NCBI RefSeq assembly: GCF_000828655.1
Contig: NZ_AP014509.1
Span: forward strand, 1,426,001-1,490,000
Length of the DNA: 64,000 nucleotides
DNA from: Thermotoga caldifontis AZM44c09
GTDB taxonomy: Bacteria > Thermotogota > Thermotogae > Thermotogales > DSM-5069
Direction: 5' to 3'
Shown here: in pieces, positions 52,232 to 58,380 of the stretch
Layout of the letters: every line of letters starts with the position of its first letter
How positions within the stretch are numbered: the first letter of the stretch is position 1
Notes under the pieces: generated by a model
Told to the model about the DNA's origin: nothing
What the model saw: the letters and a program-made list of their open reading frames with translations, nothing else
Database searches by the model: none
Translations under genes and position numbers: made by a program

Positions 52232-52585
52232 TCAGCAGTGAAGGATCGAGCTGTCGTAGAGGTCCAGAGCTTCGTCTTCCATGAGATAGACAGTAGCCTG
52301 TTTTCTTTCCTTCGCGCAGGTGAACGGATGGTTGTTGTGATTCGGGGCGTATTCGCCGTTGAAGAGCATCGCCTTCAGTTTGAGAGTGACGTAGTGGTAG
52401 ATGTATTTGTCTTTGTCCATCTTTCCTTCTTTGTAGGTTCTCAGCGCCATGAGCAGGAGGTAGTGACACGTCTGGAGCAGATCCTCGTAAGAGATTATGA
52501 AGTAATGGTACTTTTTCCAGAACTGGTTGCAGACCATCCTGACCGTCCCCTCGTATTCTTGCCAATCAGCGTAACGTTCGCTCAT
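52232..52585 (-). CDS. Small sigma-region-2-like protein
   Basis: A 117-residue protein. The segment TVRMVCNQFWKKYHYFIISY, then EDLLQTCHYLLLMALRTYKE and KDKYIYHYVTLKLKAML follows the pattern of sigma-70 region 2 (E-D-L-x-Q, then L-x2-A-x3-Y, then Y-x-Y-x2-hydrophobic helix). There is no region 4, so alone it could not recognise a -35 element. The length and layout recall RsoA, the region-2 half of the split SigO-RsoA sigma of Bacillus. I choose the ATG at 52585, which overlaps the stop of the preceding gene (TGATG); the frame extends to 52606. The assignment rests on motif pattern only. Confidence 0.5.
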   Translation of the reverse strand: MSERYADWQEYEGTVRMVCNQFWKKYHYFIISYEDLLQTCHYLLLMALRTYKEGKMDKDKYIYHYVTLKLKAMLFNGEYAPNHNNHPFTCAKERKQATVYLMEDEALDLYDSSILHC

Positions 52586-52830
52586 CAAGCGGCATTCTCC
52601 TTCCACAGCGTCTTGTTCAGGACCTTCACGATGTTGTCGATCATGAAGTCGAGCACGAAGTCGAACACGGGCTGTGGCATCGGCACTTTGATGTTGAAAT
52701 CGTTCAGGAACTGATAGACCATCTTCTTCACTTCCTGTTTCTTGTTCGCACCGTCCTTCGGCCTCTCCACGAGACAGACTCCCAGCATGACGATGCGGCC
52801 GATGAGGTTGAACAGTTCGAGCACGTTCAT
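52585..52830 (-). CDS. Small holin-like membrane protein
   Basis: An 81-residue protein: a hydrophobic N-terminal helix (VLELFNLIGRIVMLGVCLVE), a charged middle (RPKDGANKKQEVKKMV) and a second hydrophobic/amphipathic part (MPQPVFDFVLDFMIDNIVKV, LNKT). The G-x-N/E-KK-x-EV followed by D-x-IVKVLN resembles small phage-holin-like proteins. The ATG at 52830 has a perfect AAGGAGGTGAG; the longer frame to 52917 would include the promoter region. It is co-transcribed with the sigma-like gene, a pairing reminiscent of the UviA-UviB sigma/holin couple of clostridia (inference). Confidence 0.55.
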   Translation of the reverse strand: MNVLELFNLIGRIVMLGVCLVERPKDGANKKQEVKKMVYQFLNDFNIKVPMPQPVFDFVLDFMIDNIVKVLNKTLWKENAA

Positions 52831-52869: not shown

Positions 52870-52901
52870 GGGAGCTCCCACTTTATATATACGAAAGTAT
52901 A
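52870..52901 (-). promoter_or_regulatory. Shared promoter/hairpin element, copy 1
   Basis: Reading the minus strand: CGTATATATAAAGTGGGAGC then TCCC, i.e. a perfect GGGAGCTCCC palindrome (52870-52879) right after a TATATATAAAG box. The sequence to 52893 is almost the same as at 58309-58334, before the DUF1659/DUF2922 operon. A second palindrome TATAC-GAAA-GTATA overlaps at 52888-52901. 40 bases separate the hairpin from the holin-like ATG. Confidence 0.65.
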
Positions 52902-53069
52902 CATGAAGAGTCCGCAACGACTTCTTTCCTAAAAGGTTTCGTTGCGCTCAGCGTGGAGGATCGAAACAACGATCCTTCGCTTCTGAACAGAAAAAGAAGC
53001 TGTCAGAAAGGATGAAGCGGTTCAGGGAAGATCGAACGGAGTCCTTCGGGGTGATTGTTCACCATGGGA

Positions 53070-53085
53070 GTATACTTATGTATAC
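53070..53085. promoter_or_regulatory. GTATAC inverted repeat
   Basis: GTATAC-TTAT-GTATAC, perfect 6-bp arms, 185 bases upstream of the shared promoter element and sharing the GTATA half-site found in it. The 52902-53105 stretch otherwise shows no gene. Confidence 0.4.
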
Positions 53086-53105
53086 ACATGGCTTCGAACG
53101 CCACG

Positions 53106-54416
53106 TTAACTTCGTGCTTGCTCTTTTCGCCTTGGGTCTGAGATGAACTTCAAAAGGAAGAAGAAGTTGAACACACCGATCGCACCCGTCAGGGCCATGG
53201 GGAGTGTGTAACCGAAGCTGTCTGCGAGCTTGCCACAGATCAGCGGTGCGAGGAAAGAGAACGGGGCGGTCAGAAAGTACAGCGAACCCATGTAGAGTTC
53301 CTTGCGCTTGCCGGAAGTGAGATCCAGCGTGATCGCCATGCCACCCACGTTGCCCGTCGTGTTCACGATGCCCATCAACCCGTAGACCACGTAGGCTTGG
53401 CTCAAGCGTGTGCAGCTGATCGTCAACGCGAGCGCCACCACGTAGACGATCTTGTTCACGAGCAGGTTGACCTTGTGACCCTTTCGATCGCCGAGCGGAC
53501 CGAAGAAGAACGAAGAGATGCCCTGTGAAGCCATGACGATCGCGGTGAAGTTCGCCGCCGTGTCGTCCGGTAAGGACAGTTTCTTCAAAAGGTACACCGT
53601 TACGAAACCGCTCGCACCGAAGGTGAAGCTACTGATGATCCTCTCGAACAGAAAGTTTCTGAAGTTCCTGTCCGTGAAAACGTTCTTCATGTTCCTGAAG
53701 TAGTTGATCACGGGTTCGTCTTCGTGGAGCTTCGGATCGGGCACTTCCCTCGTGAGTGCGAGGAAGAAGAAGGAAGCCATGAAGAAAAAGAAGGCCGTGA
53801 GGAAGACGTAACCGAAGTTCTGCGGGAACGGGTTGCTGGCGAGCAGATTCTTCGCGATCATCGAACCTCCTATGCCCAGGATCGCACCCATACCACTACC
53901 CATGGCGAAGTACGTTCCGCGCCTTCTGGCATCGATCACCTTCTCTATCATGCTCATCCAGGGTGGACCGAGGAAGCCCATCGTATACACTGTGAGTGCC
54001 ATCATCAACGTGGCCAGATACAGCGAGAGCCTCGCAAAACGAGAGGCCAGGAAGAAGCTGATCAGCGCGAGGAACAGATAGGGTAGTCTCTCTCCCATCG
54101 TGTATTTGAGAACGAGGTTCAGCTTCTTCGCGGAGCGTTCGGCCATCTTCGCGCCCCAGATGGCGGGAATGCCCCAGCCGAGGTTGATGATCGCCAGGAT
54201 CAAACCCAGTTCCACGTTCGACGCCCCCAGGTTCTTCGCGAAGACGGGAAACAGCGTGAACATGGAACCCATCGCCATGCCAACATTGAAGAGCGCGTTG
54301 TCGGTGCAGTTGACGATGAAGTTCCAGCGATAGTCTTTTTCAGTGAGCCTTTCTGGTGTGTGGCGGTCCAACAGCGATTTCACCAGACTCAACGCACACG
54401 ATCTGTTCGCCTTCAA
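53106..54416 (-). CDS. MFS transporter
   Basis: A 436-residue permease with 12 hydrophobic segments in two halves. The MFS loop between helices 2 and 3 appears as WGIPAIWGAKMAERSAKKLN, and the equivalent in the second half as FFFGPLGDRKGHKVNLLVNK (G-x3-D-R-x-G). The family moves small solutes by proton or sodium coupling; the substrate is unknown. The TTG start at 54416 lies 7 bases after GAGGTG. Only 31 bases separate it from the upstream MBL-fold gene, so the two form a pair. Confidence 0.85.
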   Translation of the reverse strand: MKANRSCALSLVKSLLDRHTPERLTEKDYRWNFIVNCTDNALFNVGMAMGSMFTLFPVFAKNLGASNVELGLILAIINLGWGIPAIWGAKMAERSAKKLNLVLKYTMGERLPYLFLALISFFLASRFARLSLYLATLMMALTVYTMGFLGPPWMSMIEKVIDARRRGTYFAMGSGMGAILGIGGSMIAKNLLASNPFPQNFGYVFLTAFFFFMASFFFLALTREVPDPKLHEDEPVINYFRNMKNVFTDRNFRNFLFERIISSFTFGASGFVTVYLLKKLSLPDDTAANFTAIVMASQGISSFFFGPLGDRKGHKVNLLVNKIVYVVALALTISCTRLSQAYVVYGLMGIVNTTGNVGGMAITLDLTSGKRKELYMGSLYFLTAPFSFLAPLICGKLADSFGYTLPMALTGAIGVFNFFFLLKFISDPRRKEQARS

Positions 54417-54447
54417 AACTGAACACCTCGAGGAAGATTATAACGTT

Positions 54448-55326
54448 TCAGGCTCGAACTTTCCAGAGCAACACGTTTTCTTTGAACACCGTTTCGACCA
54501 TGTTTTCGCTCAGGAGATAGCTCAGATACGCGTGAACGGTGGACCTGTAGAGGACGAACTGCACGAGGTTTTCGATTTTCACACCGAACGCATCGAGCAG
54601 CTCTTTCAAAAGACCTTCCGCGGTGAGCGGGGTCTTCAAAAGCTTCAGGATGCGTTCGACAACGTCTTCGACCGTTTTTCTGTTGATTTCGAGCAGATCT
54701 TTTATGTCGCTCGTTGCCTCTCCGTGGGACGGGACGTAGAGATCGTAGTTTGAACGGCTCAGAAGATCGAGCGTTTCGAGGAACTTTTTCACATCGTACA
54801 CGACGAAGATTCTGTGCTTCTCGATCGCCGATTCAGAGAAAAACGCGTCTCCACAGAAAAGGACGTTGTCCACAGCGACGCCGATCTGGTTCACCGAATG
54901 CCCCGCGAGCGGAACGATGTTCAGAGTGACGTCTTCAAGCTGCAGCGGTCCTTCTTCGAGCGTCCCGTCGACGGTGCAGGGTTTCGCCATGAGGAACTTG
55001 GTGCGCAACTGCTCTGGGGGTGACGCAGTGAAGAGATAGAAAGGCTCCAGGATCGGATCTTCGATGATGTGCGATTCTATCCCCGGTGCGAGGATCTTCG
55101 CGGAAAACTGCTTTCGAAGATAAGAGTTGCCGCCACAGTGATCGGCGTGGGAATGGGTGTTTATGACGAACCTTACAGGCTTTTCCAGTTCGCGGCACAG
55201 CTTCTTCGCCACAGATTCGTCTATGCCGCTGTCGATCAGCAGGCTGGAGTGCGACGTGTAGACGACACCGATGTTCACAGGATTCGGCGCGTAGAACACG
55301 CGTTCCTTCAACCGCTTCAAGCCCAT
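54448..55326 (-). CDS. MBL-fold metallo-hydrolase
   Basis: A 292-residue metallo-beta-lactamase-fold protein. Metal motif H-x-H-x-D-H is complete in VINTHSHADHCGGNSYLRKQ near residue 58; the later His is in VPLAGHSVNQIGVAVDN, the Asp in FCGDAFFSES and the last His in YVPSHGEATSDIKD. The C-terminal 80 residues are a helical extension resembling a winged-helix dimerisation region. Glyoxalase II-like or RNA-processing activity cannot be told apart. The ATG has GAGGTGAA just upstream. It is divergent from the lactate-permease-like gene. Confidence 0.87.
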   Translation of the reverse strand: MGLKRLKERVFYAPNPVNIGVVYTSHSSLLIDSGIDESVAKKLCRELEKPVRFVINTHSHADHCGGNSYLRKQFSAKILAPGIESHIIEDPILEPFYLFTASPPEQLRTKFLMAKPCTVDGTLEEGPLQLEDVTLNIVPLAGHSVNQIGVAVDNVLFCGDAFFSESAIEKHRIFVVYDVKKFLETLDLLSRSNYDLYVPSHGEATSDIKDLLEINRKTVEDVVERILKLLKTPLTAEGLLKELLDAFGVKIENLVQFVLYRSTVHAYLSYLLSENMVETVFKENVLLWKVRA

Positions 55327-55414
55327 AGTTCACCTCGACAGTTCAGGATCATTATACAACTCGAACCGTTCGAAGAATGCACGATCGCGTTATCATCTCT
55401 CTGGAGGGTGTCTC

Positions 55415-56947
55415 TTGAGCGGTGTTCTCGCCTTCAGTCCGGTGGTCGTGGTGTTCTTGCTGCTGCTTTTGACGAAGGCGTCGGTGTTCACAGCGGGGCT
55501 CGCCGGTTATCTTGCAGCCGTTGTGCTCGCGCTCAGCTATTTTTCAACATCGCTGGAAGTGGTGCTCCGCTCGACGATCGCAGGATTTCTGGCTTCGCTT
55601 CCGGTGTCGATCATCGTGGTCGCATCTCTATTCCAGCTCACGCTGATGGAAACTGCCGGGGCGATGGGTACGATCGTCGAGTTTTCGAAAAAACTCTGCG
55701 AAAAAGACAAAGTGTTTCAGATCCTGATCATCGTCATCGGGGTGGGTACGTTGCTCTCTTCCGCCGGTGCGGTGCCCGTGACCGTGATCACACCGATCCT
55801 GGTGGCGCTGGGTTATTCACCCGCGGCGAGCATCGCGCTCTCCGCTCTGGGATACGACGCGCTCTGCACCTACACGATCTTGGGCGTTCCGCTGGTTGTG
55901 TACGCGGAGATGGTGGAGACGGACCTGATCACGGCCGCGAGATACTTTCTGCCGTTCGTGGGGATCGTGTCGGTCGCGATCTCGCTGGCGGTGCTTTATC
56001 TGGCTGGGGGGATGAACTTTCTCAGGCGCGGTTTTCTCTTGACAATCCTGGTCGGTGTCGTGTCACTCCTCGGTGCGATGGCTGGAATATGGATCGGGGC
56101 ACCGGTGCTGACAGGTTTGATCACCGGGTTCCTGATCGTTGCGAGTCTGTCCATCGTCTACAGGTTCAGGAATCGCACACGCATCGTCGCTGAGGGACTG
56201 GATGTGAAGCGTCTGCTGGTCGCTTCGTCACCATGGCTTTTGCTCATATTCTTCATCGTCTTCGTGAATCTCGTAAAGCCCGTGCACGAACTCTTCTACC
56301 AGAAGTGGTCGATGCCGATCGATGTGTTGAAAGGAAAAGCGGTACACCTGAGAGTTCTGTGGCAGGCGTACACGTGGATCTTCGTGAGCGCCCTCCTGGC
56401 GGTCTTCATCTACCGGGTGGATACAAGACAGCTGAGGGAGATCTTCACCAAGACGAAGAAGAGGGTCGTTCAGCCTTTCTGGTCAGCGACGATCTTCTTT
56501 CTCATCGCCTACGTGATGCTGCATTCTGGTTATGAAATGACACCGCACGGACTGAAACTGGTCCAGATCGAGAAAAACATGATACACGCGATGGCGGTCT
56601 CTTCCGCGAAGCTGTTTGGAAGTTTCTATGCGTTCTTCACACCCTTTCTGGGCGTGCTCGGAGGCTTCGTGACGGGTACGCAGACTTCTGCGACGGCGAT
56701 GTTCGCGCGCTACACTTTGGAGACTTCGAAACTTCTGGATCTCTCAGGCTTCTACATGGCGGCGGCCGTAGCGTTCGGCAGTGGGCTCGCGTCGGCGATA
56801 TCGCCTTCGAAGCTTCAGAACGCGGCAGCATCGATCGATAAGATAGGTGAAGAGAAGAAGGTCCTGCCACGGAACGTCCTGATCGTTCTTTCGATGGCGC
56901 TTTTGACAGCCATCGTCGCGTACACGCTGAGAAGACAGTTCGTGTGA
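55415..56947 (+). CDS. L-lactate permease family transporter
   Basis: A 510-residue membrane protein with about 13 hydrophobic segments and the LctP-family opening LAFSPVVVVFLLLLLTKAS. Regions such as ETAGAMGTIVEFSKKLCEKD, SSAGAVPVTVITPILVALGY and the late FVTGTQTSATAMFARYTLET with AVAFGSGLASAISPSKLQNA (Gly/Ser-rich) are conserved in lactate/glycolate permeases. It probably imports or exports a 2-hydroxy acid. TTG start after GGAGGGTG. It is followed 10 bases later by the transglycosylase gene. Confidence 0.82.
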   Translation: MSGVLAFSPVVVVFLLLLLTKASVFTAGLAGYLAAVVLALSYFSTSLEVVLRSTIAGFLASLPVSIIVVASLFQLTLMETAGAMGTIVEFSKKLCEKDKVFQILIIVIGVGTLLSSAGAVPVTVITPILVALGYSPAASIALSALGYDALCTYTILGVPLVVYAEMVETDLITAARYFLPFVGIVSVAISLAVLYLAGGMNFLRRGFLLTILVGVVSLLGAMAGIWIGAPVLTGLITGFLIVASLSIVYRFRNRTRIVAEGLDVKRLLVASSPWLLLIFFIVFVNLVKPVHELFYQKWSMPIDVLKGKAVHLRVLWQAYTWIFVSALLAVFIYRVDTRQLREIFTKTKKRVVQPFWSATIFFLIAYVMLHSGYEMTPHGLKLVQIEKNMIHAMAVSSAKLFGSFYAFFTPFLGVLGGFVTGTQTSATAMFARYTLETSKLLDLSGFYMAAAVAFGSGLASAISPSKLQNAAASIDKIGEEKKVLPRNVLIVLSMALLTAIVAYTLRRQFV

Positions 56948-56957
56948 GGTGTGAAGG

Positions 56958-57839
56958 TTGAAAAAATTGCTGTGGCTCTTTTCTCTCCTGTGTCTGAACC
57001 TTGTTCTGGCGAATCCCTTAGTGCTTCTGAACGAACCTGCAAAGGGTGTCTCTGTCACGTACCAGCCCGAACAGTTCAGGCTCACGGTGCTTTTGCCGGT
57101 GGTTCACCCCGTCGCACCGATCGACTGGTTTTTGCCCAAAGACAGCGCGAAAATTCTCAAAGGCCTGATCGGCGTGGAATCGAATTTCTTCGTCCACGCG
57201 GTTTCCGAAAAGGGTGCGATGGGTCTGACCCAGCTGATGCCAGCGACGGCGAAAGAGCTCGGCGTTCCGAACGCCTTCAACGTGTTCTCTTCGATCGATG
57301 CCGCGAACAGATATTTGAACCAGCTGTTTGCAAGATTCAGCAGCGTTCAGCTCGCGCTCGCCGCCTATCACGAAGGACCGGGCAGGGTTGAAAGGCAGGG
57401 ACCGAGCACGGAGGGGATCGGCTACGCTCAAAAAGTTCTGACACGTTCGCGGCAGCTTGAAGGTAAAACCATCTTTTTGAGAGACGTGACCTATTTTGAA
57501 CCGTACGTCGAACTGGGGAAAGACGTTTCAGGCGGGCTGAACGTTTATCTGTCACTGCTCGGTGCAGGCTACGTGGTGGGTGGGTTTGAGGTTTCGAACA
57601 GTATTTCGCACCAGGTACTGTTCTATCCAGCCATCACGCACGATTTCAGCTTGATCATCGGAGAGAAAGATCTCAAACTGGTTGGGGGATTTCTCTACAG
57701 GAAGGTTCCGAACTTCGGATTTCAGGTTCTTTTCGGCGAGAAGGATTTCGATGCGAGTGGGATCGTGCGCGTGTGGAAGTTCTATGTGACGGCGGGCTTT
57801 TCCAGCGGAAAGCTACGCGTGGGAATGATCTTCAAATGA
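56958..57839 (+). CDS. Lytic transglycosylase, SLT type
   Basis: A secreted 293-residue murein-cleaving protein. After a signal peptide (LKKLLWLFSLLCLNLVLANP) comes the SLT domain (about 55-145): ILKGLIGVESNFFVHAVSEK with catalytic Glu, GAMGLTQLMPATAKELGVPN, and QLALAAYHEGPGRVERQG. The last 130 residues (TYFEPYVELGKDVSGGLNVY, beta-rich) are not a domain I recognise and may bind envelope polymers. The TTG start follows GAGGTGTGAAGG. A bidirectional terminator follows the stop. Confidence 0.88.
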   Translation: MKKLLWLFSLLCLNLVLANPLVLLNEPAKGVSVTYQPEQFRLTVLLPVVHPVAPIDWFLPKDSAKILKGLIGVESNFFVHAVSEKGAMGLTQLMPATAKELGVPNAFNVFSSIDAANRYLNQLFARFSSVQLALAAYHEGPGRVERQGPSTEGIGYAQKVLTRSRQLEGKTIFLRDVTYFEPYVELGKDVSGGLNVYLSLLGAGYVVGGFEVSNSISHQVLFYPAITHDFSLIIGEKDLKLVGGFLYRKVPNFGFQVLFGEKDFDASGIVRVWKFYVTAGFSSGKLRVGMIFK

Positions 57840-57840
57840 A

Positions 57841-57864
57841 GAAGGCCCCCTCGCGGGGGCCTTC
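57841..57864. terminator. Bidirectional terminator between convergent operons
   Basis: A perfect 10-bp stem, GAAGGCCCCC (57841-57850) with GGGGGCCTTC (57855-57864), loop TCGC, between the transglycosylase and the convergent DUF2922 gene. Confidence 0.88.
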
Positions 57865-57866
57865 GT

Positions 57867-58076
57867 TCAGAGCAGGTTGAAGAACTCGTTCGTGGTCGTT
57901 TCGACTATCGCCGCTCTGTCTTTGACGTAACCAGACGGGATCGCTCCGAGACTTATCAACGCGTCCATCGCTTGAGACACCTGTTCGCTCGTGAGATCCA
58001 GCTTCGGGTTGGGTATGGTGATCCTGCGTCTTTTTCCATCGCTCTGGTTCACGAAATCGAGGAAGAGTCTCTTCAT
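57867..58076 (-). CDS. DUF2922 family small protein
   Basis: A 69-residue protein. Its pattern, MKRLFLDFVNQSDGKRRRIT, then IPNPKLDLTSEQVSQAMDAL and an end with Val-Glu-x-Thr-Thr-x-x-Phe, is that of the DUF2922 family, a small beta-rich protein of unknown function almost always found beside a DUF1659 gene, as here. The ATG is preceded by AAAAGGAGGTGTG. Start-to-stop spacing with the upstream gene is 15 bases, so they are one operon. Confidence 0.75.
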   Translation of the reverse strand: MKRLFLDFVNQSDGKRRRITIPNPKLDLTSEQVSQAMDALISLGAIPSGYVKDRAAIVETTTNEFFNLL

Positions 58077-58091
58077 ACATCACACCTCCTT

Positions 58092-58286
58092 TTAGACGAC
58101 CTGGACGGTGGTGATCAGATAGGCTTCCTGGACCGTGTAGTTCGTGAGCGAGTCGATGACGTTGGTGATCTGTTCAGCCTGAACCATCGTGACGGAATCT
58201 TCCACGGCGAAGCTGGCGCGTCTGAGGATGGGCCTGCCCGATTCGTTCACCTCGCCCGTGTTGTAAACGAGCCTGAGCTGTTTCAT
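58092..58286 (-). CDS. DUF1659 family small protein
   Basis: A 64-residue protein: MKQLRLVYNTGEVNESGRPI, LRRASFAVEDSVTMVQAEQI and TNVIDSLTNYTVQEAYLITT. This matches the DUF1659 pattern (short beta-hairpin with G-x-P, then a helix, then a strand). I take the ATG at 58286 behind GGGAGGTG; the frame is open to 58322. DUF1659 and DUF2922 pairs are known in Firmicutes beside YvrJ and sigma-factor genes, but their role is not known to me. The operon shares its promoter element with the sigma-like/holin-like operon at 52.8 kb. Confidence 0.75.
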   Translation of the reverse strand: MKQLRLVYNTGEVNESGRPILRRASFAVEDSVTMVQAEQITNVIDSLTNYTVQEAYLITTVQVV

Positions 58287-58308
58287 AACAGCACCTCCCT
58301 TCGGTTTT

Positions 58309-58334
58309 GGGAGCGCTCCCACTTAATAGATACG
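58309..58334 (-). promoter_or_regulatory. Shared promoter/hairpin element, copy 2
   Basis: Minus strand: CGTATCTATTAAGTGGGAGC then GCTCCC, with the perfect palindrome GGGAGCGCTCCC at 58309-58320. 15 of 17 bases of CCCACTTAATAGATACG agree with 52877-52893. The DUF1659 ribosome site and ATG follow after 23 bases, and the text around the ribosome sites (CCGAAGG-GGTG-CTGT-ATG) is also similar in both operons. Confidence 0.65.
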
Positions 58335-58380
58335 GAGGTGAGCTGTTACCAGAAGGAAACGGTTCTTTGAAGATCGCCCC

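Follow-up and report, generated by a model that had tools for sequence, protein, structure and literature searches.

The two small operons DUF1659-DUF2922 and HOL-SIG of the heat-loving bacterium Thermotoga caldifontis AZM44c09 derive from one ancestral operon of four genes, of which each represents a half, and each has retained its promoter, a two-box element followed by a perfect palindrome at the presumed start of the transcript. Both the promoter class and the constraint on the palindrome are well supported. The same promoter, that of the operon of an unrecognised sigma-like gene, also stands at no fewer than ten short, apparently non-coding units, which suggests an undescribed small-RNA control circuit. 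The account we hold to be probable, if only by a little, is an autoregulated system in which SIG, a sigma-70 region-2 protein that would have lost region 4, acts on the dedicated promoter of the split operon and on further targets that are mostly small RNAs.

In T. maritima, four sigma factors have been described, and a promoter motif was found for none of the three alternative ones (PMC3636130). To these is added here a further sigma-like protein, with homologues in 43 of the 61 genomes sampled from the group, together with a two-box promoter and candidate small RNAs absent from Rfam. DUF1659 and DUF2922, mentioned by only one paper in the literature searched, are thereby placed in a regulatory context for the first time. 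Work on the pressure-response transcriptome of Pseudothermotoga mentions neither the DUF nor the sigma genes.

Two operons derived from one

The window (the whole stretch of 64,000 nucleotides that was analysed) contains the following features, listed in the order of transcription for each operon:

58356..58360, minus strand: putative -35 box GTTTC of the DUF1659-DUF2922 operon, separated from CGTAT by 21 nt
58330..58334, minus strand: putative -10 region CGTAT of the DUF1659-DUF2922 operon, from the pattern match
58308..58321, minus strand: palindrome TGGGAGCGCTCCCA, where the transcript of the DUF1659-DUF2922 operon presumably starts, from the sequence
58092..58286, minus strand: DUF1659 protein, 64 aa (Pfam PF07872, 35 bits, cut-off 24.1)
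57867..58076, minus strand: DUF2922 protein, 69 aa (Pfam PF11148, 61 bits, cut-off 25.5)
52914..52918, minus strand: putative -35 box GTTGC of the HOL-SIG operon, separated from CGTAT by 20 nt
52889..52893, minus strand: putative -10 region CGTAT of the HOL-SIG operon, from the pattern match
52870..52879, minus strand: palindrome GGGAGCTCCC, where the transcript of the HOL-SIG operon presumably starts, from the sequence
52585..52830, minus strand: HOL, 81-aa three-helix protein with the motif LVERPxDGxxKKxEV, encoded third in the ancestral operon
52232..52585, minus strand: SIG, 117-aa sigma-70 region-2-like protein, from the Pfam matches of its homologues and its fold

Both DUF proteins belong to their families, with scores above the Pfam cut-offs; DUF2922 occurs in 51 of the 61 sampled genomes and, among the control genomes, in T. 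maritima only. Most Thermotogota relatives carry a single operon, DUF1659-DUF2922-HOL-SIG, with SIG and DUF2922 about 500 bp apart. It is broken ahead of HOL in the genome of the window and in G001, G004 and G006, and G001 has one split and two unsplit copies, all with the promoter. As the two operons were ancestrally one, a common promoter makes sense; the link that the preliminary description drew between them is thus real history, both halves having kept the promoter after the split.

In another family, SIG alone has been relocated away from the operon. Most of these stand-alone genes have a GTAGATAYAT box about 110-150 bp upstream, resembling the box of the DUF1659 operons of the same family, and lack a clear palindrome. 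A dyad, GTATAC-N4-GTATAC, is found at the housekeeping-type promoter of stand-alone SIG genes (upstream regions L081, L107, L111, L115, L117, L118 and L120); it also overlaps the -10 box of many operon promoters, with an imperfect copy in the window at 52887-52902, and resembles a site for a repressor or an activator that the module has in common.

HOL is conserved in nearly all relatives, and its model (pLDDT 89) found no match in a fold search. The earlier label 'holin-like' is not supported, its sole basis being a sub-threshold Pfam match (Phage_holin_6_1, 15.2 bits against a cut-off of 24.9, E 0.029). A phage origin was rejected, DUF2922 being absent from the phage collection searched, and a sequence search for solved structures related to DUF2922 or SIG returned none that is convincing. 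Weak PADLOC matches (E 5e-4) between DUF2922 and retron-type reverse transcriptases are judged to be chance, since they cover about 45 aa of a profile of about 480 aa. Genes for peptidoglycan hydrolases (lytic transglycosylase-like, amidase, glucosaminidase-like) adjoin DUF1659-DUF2922 in three unrelated lineages (window, 56958-57839, plus strand; L180, 3445-4110; L084, after HOL), and in several genomes, intact SIG or DUF genes are accompanied by a second copy that is decayed or has a broken frame (L066, 3113-3230; L093; L099, plus strand).

A recurrent two-box promoter

As had been described, the window contains CGTATNTATNAAGTGGGAGC as an exact pair, one copy at 52874-52893 and the other at 58315-58334, both on the minus strand and each closely 5' of a two-gene operon. 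The accompanying statement that it occurs nowhere else holds for the window, where there is no third match even at 3 mismatches (shuffle expectation 0.01), and this is the sole exact pair of CGTATNTATNAAGTGGGAGC in the complete genome (2,014,912 bases). For the promoter as a whole it does not hold. Further upstream of CGTAT, both window copies have a second box, GTTNC, which had been overlooked, and the pattern GTTNC-N20/21-CGTAT-N6..9-TGG has 13 matches genome-wide (2.01 Mb) versus 0 for the reversed pattern used as a control; the whole-genome search that had been proposed thus finds an element that is not restricted to two operons. Twelve of the 13 matches are intergenic and every one of the 12 has the palindrome; they comprise the two operons of the window and 10 sites without a convincing ORF, which we regard as candidate small-RNA genes. 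The remaining match, at 1790385, lies inside a coding frame, has no palindrome and was discarded. A few further units of the genome have a weaker -35 box.

If the first G of GG is taken as +1, a TATNTA-like hexamer drawn from CGTATC/A would occupy roughly -12 to -7, and GTTNC roughly -40 to -36; the spacing of the element would then be that of a promoter, one unlike the housekeeping promoter of T. maritima (PMC3636130). A housekeeping promoter was rejected here, a TTGACA box being absent at any fixed position. In the genus of the window, GTTNC stands 20-21 nt ahead in 20 of 37 distinct upstream regions, and at any other distance in at most two; it is found in none of the 27 of the neighbouring genus, the one with the most element copies, and again, in a distant family, ahead of two operons (L123, L127). 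The -35 box thus appears to be lineage-specific. In a Thermotoga-like genus, sites of the form GTTNC-N20/21-GGACT (L288, L304, L294, L305) occur without a palindrome before a small reading frame and before another conserved spot, and are possible further members of the regulon.

The palindrome at the presumed transcript start

The palindromes of the two window copies differ by 2 bp in their centre, so that it is the symmetry that is kept and not the sequence. Within the 24 nt after TGG, 16 of 16 sites of the genome have a perfect palindrome no shorter than 8 nt, versus 5.9% of shuffles, and in 81% of the 16 it reaches 10 nt or more, versus 1.4%; these counts take in related sites, which are therefore not independent events. 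The sequences range over GGAGCGCTCC, GAGAGCGCTCTC, GGGAACGTTCCC, GGAGATCTCC, TGGAAGCGCTTCCA and the palindrome of the HOL-SIG operon, and they vary likewise, with the symmetry kept, across the operon leaders of the group. Such persistence of symmetry without a fixed sequence points to base pairing.

The transcript had been expected to begin with a GGGAGC(GC)TCCC hairpin. A plain hairpin is not favoured by the folding energies, which for the leaders, and for the units of G008, are near or above those of shuffled controls. Hairpins taken in isolation are no more stable than chance would give, and a simple 5' hairpin was thus rejected. The exception is the DUF1659 leader (z -1.9), in whose best fold the right arm of the palindrome pairs with the Shine-Dalgarno region instead of forming the hairpin; in other leaders, this pairing may merely reflect that CUCC is complementary to GGAGG. 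The centre of the palindrome, moreover, is also symmetric, which a hairpin would not require. Together with the energies, this leads us to infer an intermolecular RNA duplex or another constraint at the level of the duplex.

The GGGAGCGC class of sites has a further feature: its left arm finds a perfect complement about 70-113 nt downstream at 24 of 85 sites (a few of them counted twice) versus 0.9 expected. In the predicted folds, the left arm and this complement close the RNA, and one site, L239, shows a compensated change in the pairing.

The sigma-like protein

The sigma-70 region 2 pattern noted in the small protein is borne out by its family: 21 of 24 SIG homologues match Pfam Sigma70_r2 (best 5.7e-8), and two long ones match Sigma70_r4 in the same chain; the window SIG itself has no Pfam match. 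Structure prediction, proposed as a check, agrees. With the AlphaFold2 model (pLDDT 81), the Foldseek matches listed, down to rank 50, are all sigma-factor or RNA-polymerase entries, at weak E-values (best 0.16), and the matches listed in a second structural comparison are all sigma or holoenzyme structures, with Z up to 9.4 at an rmsd of 2.2 A over 74 residues. The assignment of SIG as a sigma-70 region-2 protein is thus supported by family, via the homologues, and by the modelled fold.

Region 4 is missing from the window SIG, which has no HTH; only longer homologues have it, and these match an ECF-type superfamily model weakly. A search of the genome for a separate region-4 partner recognised none: RpoE and FliA alone score above the region-4_2 cut-off, and those of the weaker matches that were checked are not sigma subunits.

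Dispersed units in related genomes

A search of relatives with CGTATACTATATNNTGG, allowing one mismatch, gives matches in G008 (22), G009 (6) and G006 (4). Most of these are units that lie between genes and to which no gene is directly joined. A sequence-only model built from 19 units finds 8 in the T. caldifontis genome; three sister species have 10 to 16, four genomes of a neighbouring genus have 5 to 23, and G003 has none; elsewhere it mostly gives one match, at the operon promoter itself. Rfam covariance models have no match over the units at the gathering threshold or at E up to 1.

Occurrence of the units and of SIG does not coincide throughout: G010, a 94% complete draft, has 9 elements, with neither SIG nor DUF2922 found; G003 has SIG and the operon and no dispersed units; and G015 has the operon and no SIG. 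One candidate unit (L278, G000:C1:1913921-1913962) has the 23S-5S rRNA genes close by, and two others (L271, L161) are near tRNA genes.

Proposed mechanism and alternative explanations

In the mechanism we propose, the ancestral operon was split and each half kept a dedicated alternative-sigma promoter, from which transcription would start at or near the GG of the palindrome. SIG most likely recognises CGTAT as the -10 region, which would make both operons autoregulated, and some partner other than SIG would provide the -35 contact. The same promoter would drive at least 10 further short intergenic units. In the GGGAGCGC class, the left arm at the 5' end would pair with its downstream copy to form a closed RNA of about 80-115 nt; in the other class, and in the leaders of the mRNAs, the palindrome most likely pairs with itself, as an RNA dimer or a short stem, which might for example protect or regulate the transcript. 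The small alternative-sigma regulon suggested in the preliminary description is supported in part, by the promoter layout of the element, the common ancestry of the operons and the region-2 family and fold of the small protein; the limitation of the element to two operons is not supported.

The promoter accompanies the SIG operon in most arrangements examined, and SIG is thus its simplest cognate factor; rpoE and sigH of the same genome do not have this promoter upstream. Against SIG count the patterns of G010, G003 and G015, the absence of GTTNC in the neighbouring genus with the most copies, the weak Foldseek E-values, and the lack of region 4 and of a recognised partner. The promoter could instead belong to another sigma factor, most plausibly the ECF factor RpoE, in which case SIG would be no more than a target or accessory. 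The combination of a CGTA -10 box and, at about 17 nt, a GTTACCTT-like -35 box resembles ECF promoters, an ECF factor of the standard type is present in the genome along with a likely anti-sigma gene, and some genomes have elements or the operon where SIG was not found. ECF factors usually autoregulate, however, and the absence of the promoter upstream of the ECF operon therefore counts against RpoE, as does the fact that the promoter stays with SIG's own operon through the split; we consider this explanation unlikely. It overlaps in part, as do the two that follow, with the one based on SIG, and the likelihoods given to all four should be read accordingly.

The dispersed units might also be MITE-like repetitive mobile DNA that carries the promoter region of the operon and is itself without function, as could be expected from G008, where many copies share about 190 bp including upstream sequence and have modules shuffled among them. 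Copies in the T. caldifontis genome, however, are otherwise dissimilar and share only the promoter, the palindrome and a short downstream motif; the palindromes change while retaining their symmetry, and one class keeps the downstream complement of its 5' arm far beyond expectation. We give mobile DNA about the same low likelihood as RpoE. Less probable still, in our view, is that a dimeric DNA-binding regulator uses the palindrome as its operator, at a site that overlaps an ordinary housekeeping promoter: the fixed place of the palindrome relative to the presumed start and the TATACT-like -10 of several relatives would fit, but its sequence differs among sites of one genome while the symmetry is perfect including the centre, the half-site spacing of the two window copies differs by 2 bp, and there is no positioned TTGACA box.

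Returning to SIG as the cognate factor, a more far-reaching version can be put forward tentatively, as a possibility we think rather doubtful: that in Thermotogota a sigma factor consisting of region 2 alone controls an undescribed family of small RNAs, at least ten per genome, along with its own operon, and that their self-complementary 5' ends serve RNA-RNA assembly at high temperature. If so, the start of every transcript would allow these RNAs to pair with themselves or with each other.

Comparison with known systems

The nearest functional precedent for SIG is RsoA of B. subtilis, a region-2 subunit which works with a separate region-4 protein (PMC8103513). Common to both are a small, separate region-2 protein and, as proposed for SIG, a narrow autoregulated regulon, which in B. 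subtilis includes yvrJ (PMC8103513). In contrast to SigO-RsoA, no SigO-like region-4 partner is recognised in this genome, for which reason SIG is not assigned to that type; SIG relatives with region 4 have it in the same chain, and the putative targets in T. caldifontis are mostly apparent non-coding units. With ECF (group IV) sigma factors, the system shares the CGTA-type -10 box and, in the long SIG homologues, the combination of regions 2 and 4; it differs in the window SIG, which lacks region 4, in a putative regulon that is mainly non-coding, and in the palindromic start.

The DUF1659-DUF2922 clusters of Bacilli differ in that no palindrome was seen at the loci examined and in that one plasmid copy has YvrJ and an amidase in place of HOL, plus a ComK-like gene. 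The latter (L180, 2061-2567; Pfam E 1.4e-5) lies just 5' of DUF1659-DUF2922-YvrJ on a Peribacillus plasmid. The same two DUF genes in tandem are common to both groups, a CGTATATAG box precedes DUF1659 in two of the loci, and in one a complete sigma-70 family gene lies directly upstream; the expectation that the DUF pair travels with sigma-factor or YvrJ genes is in fact borne out in these Bacilli loci.
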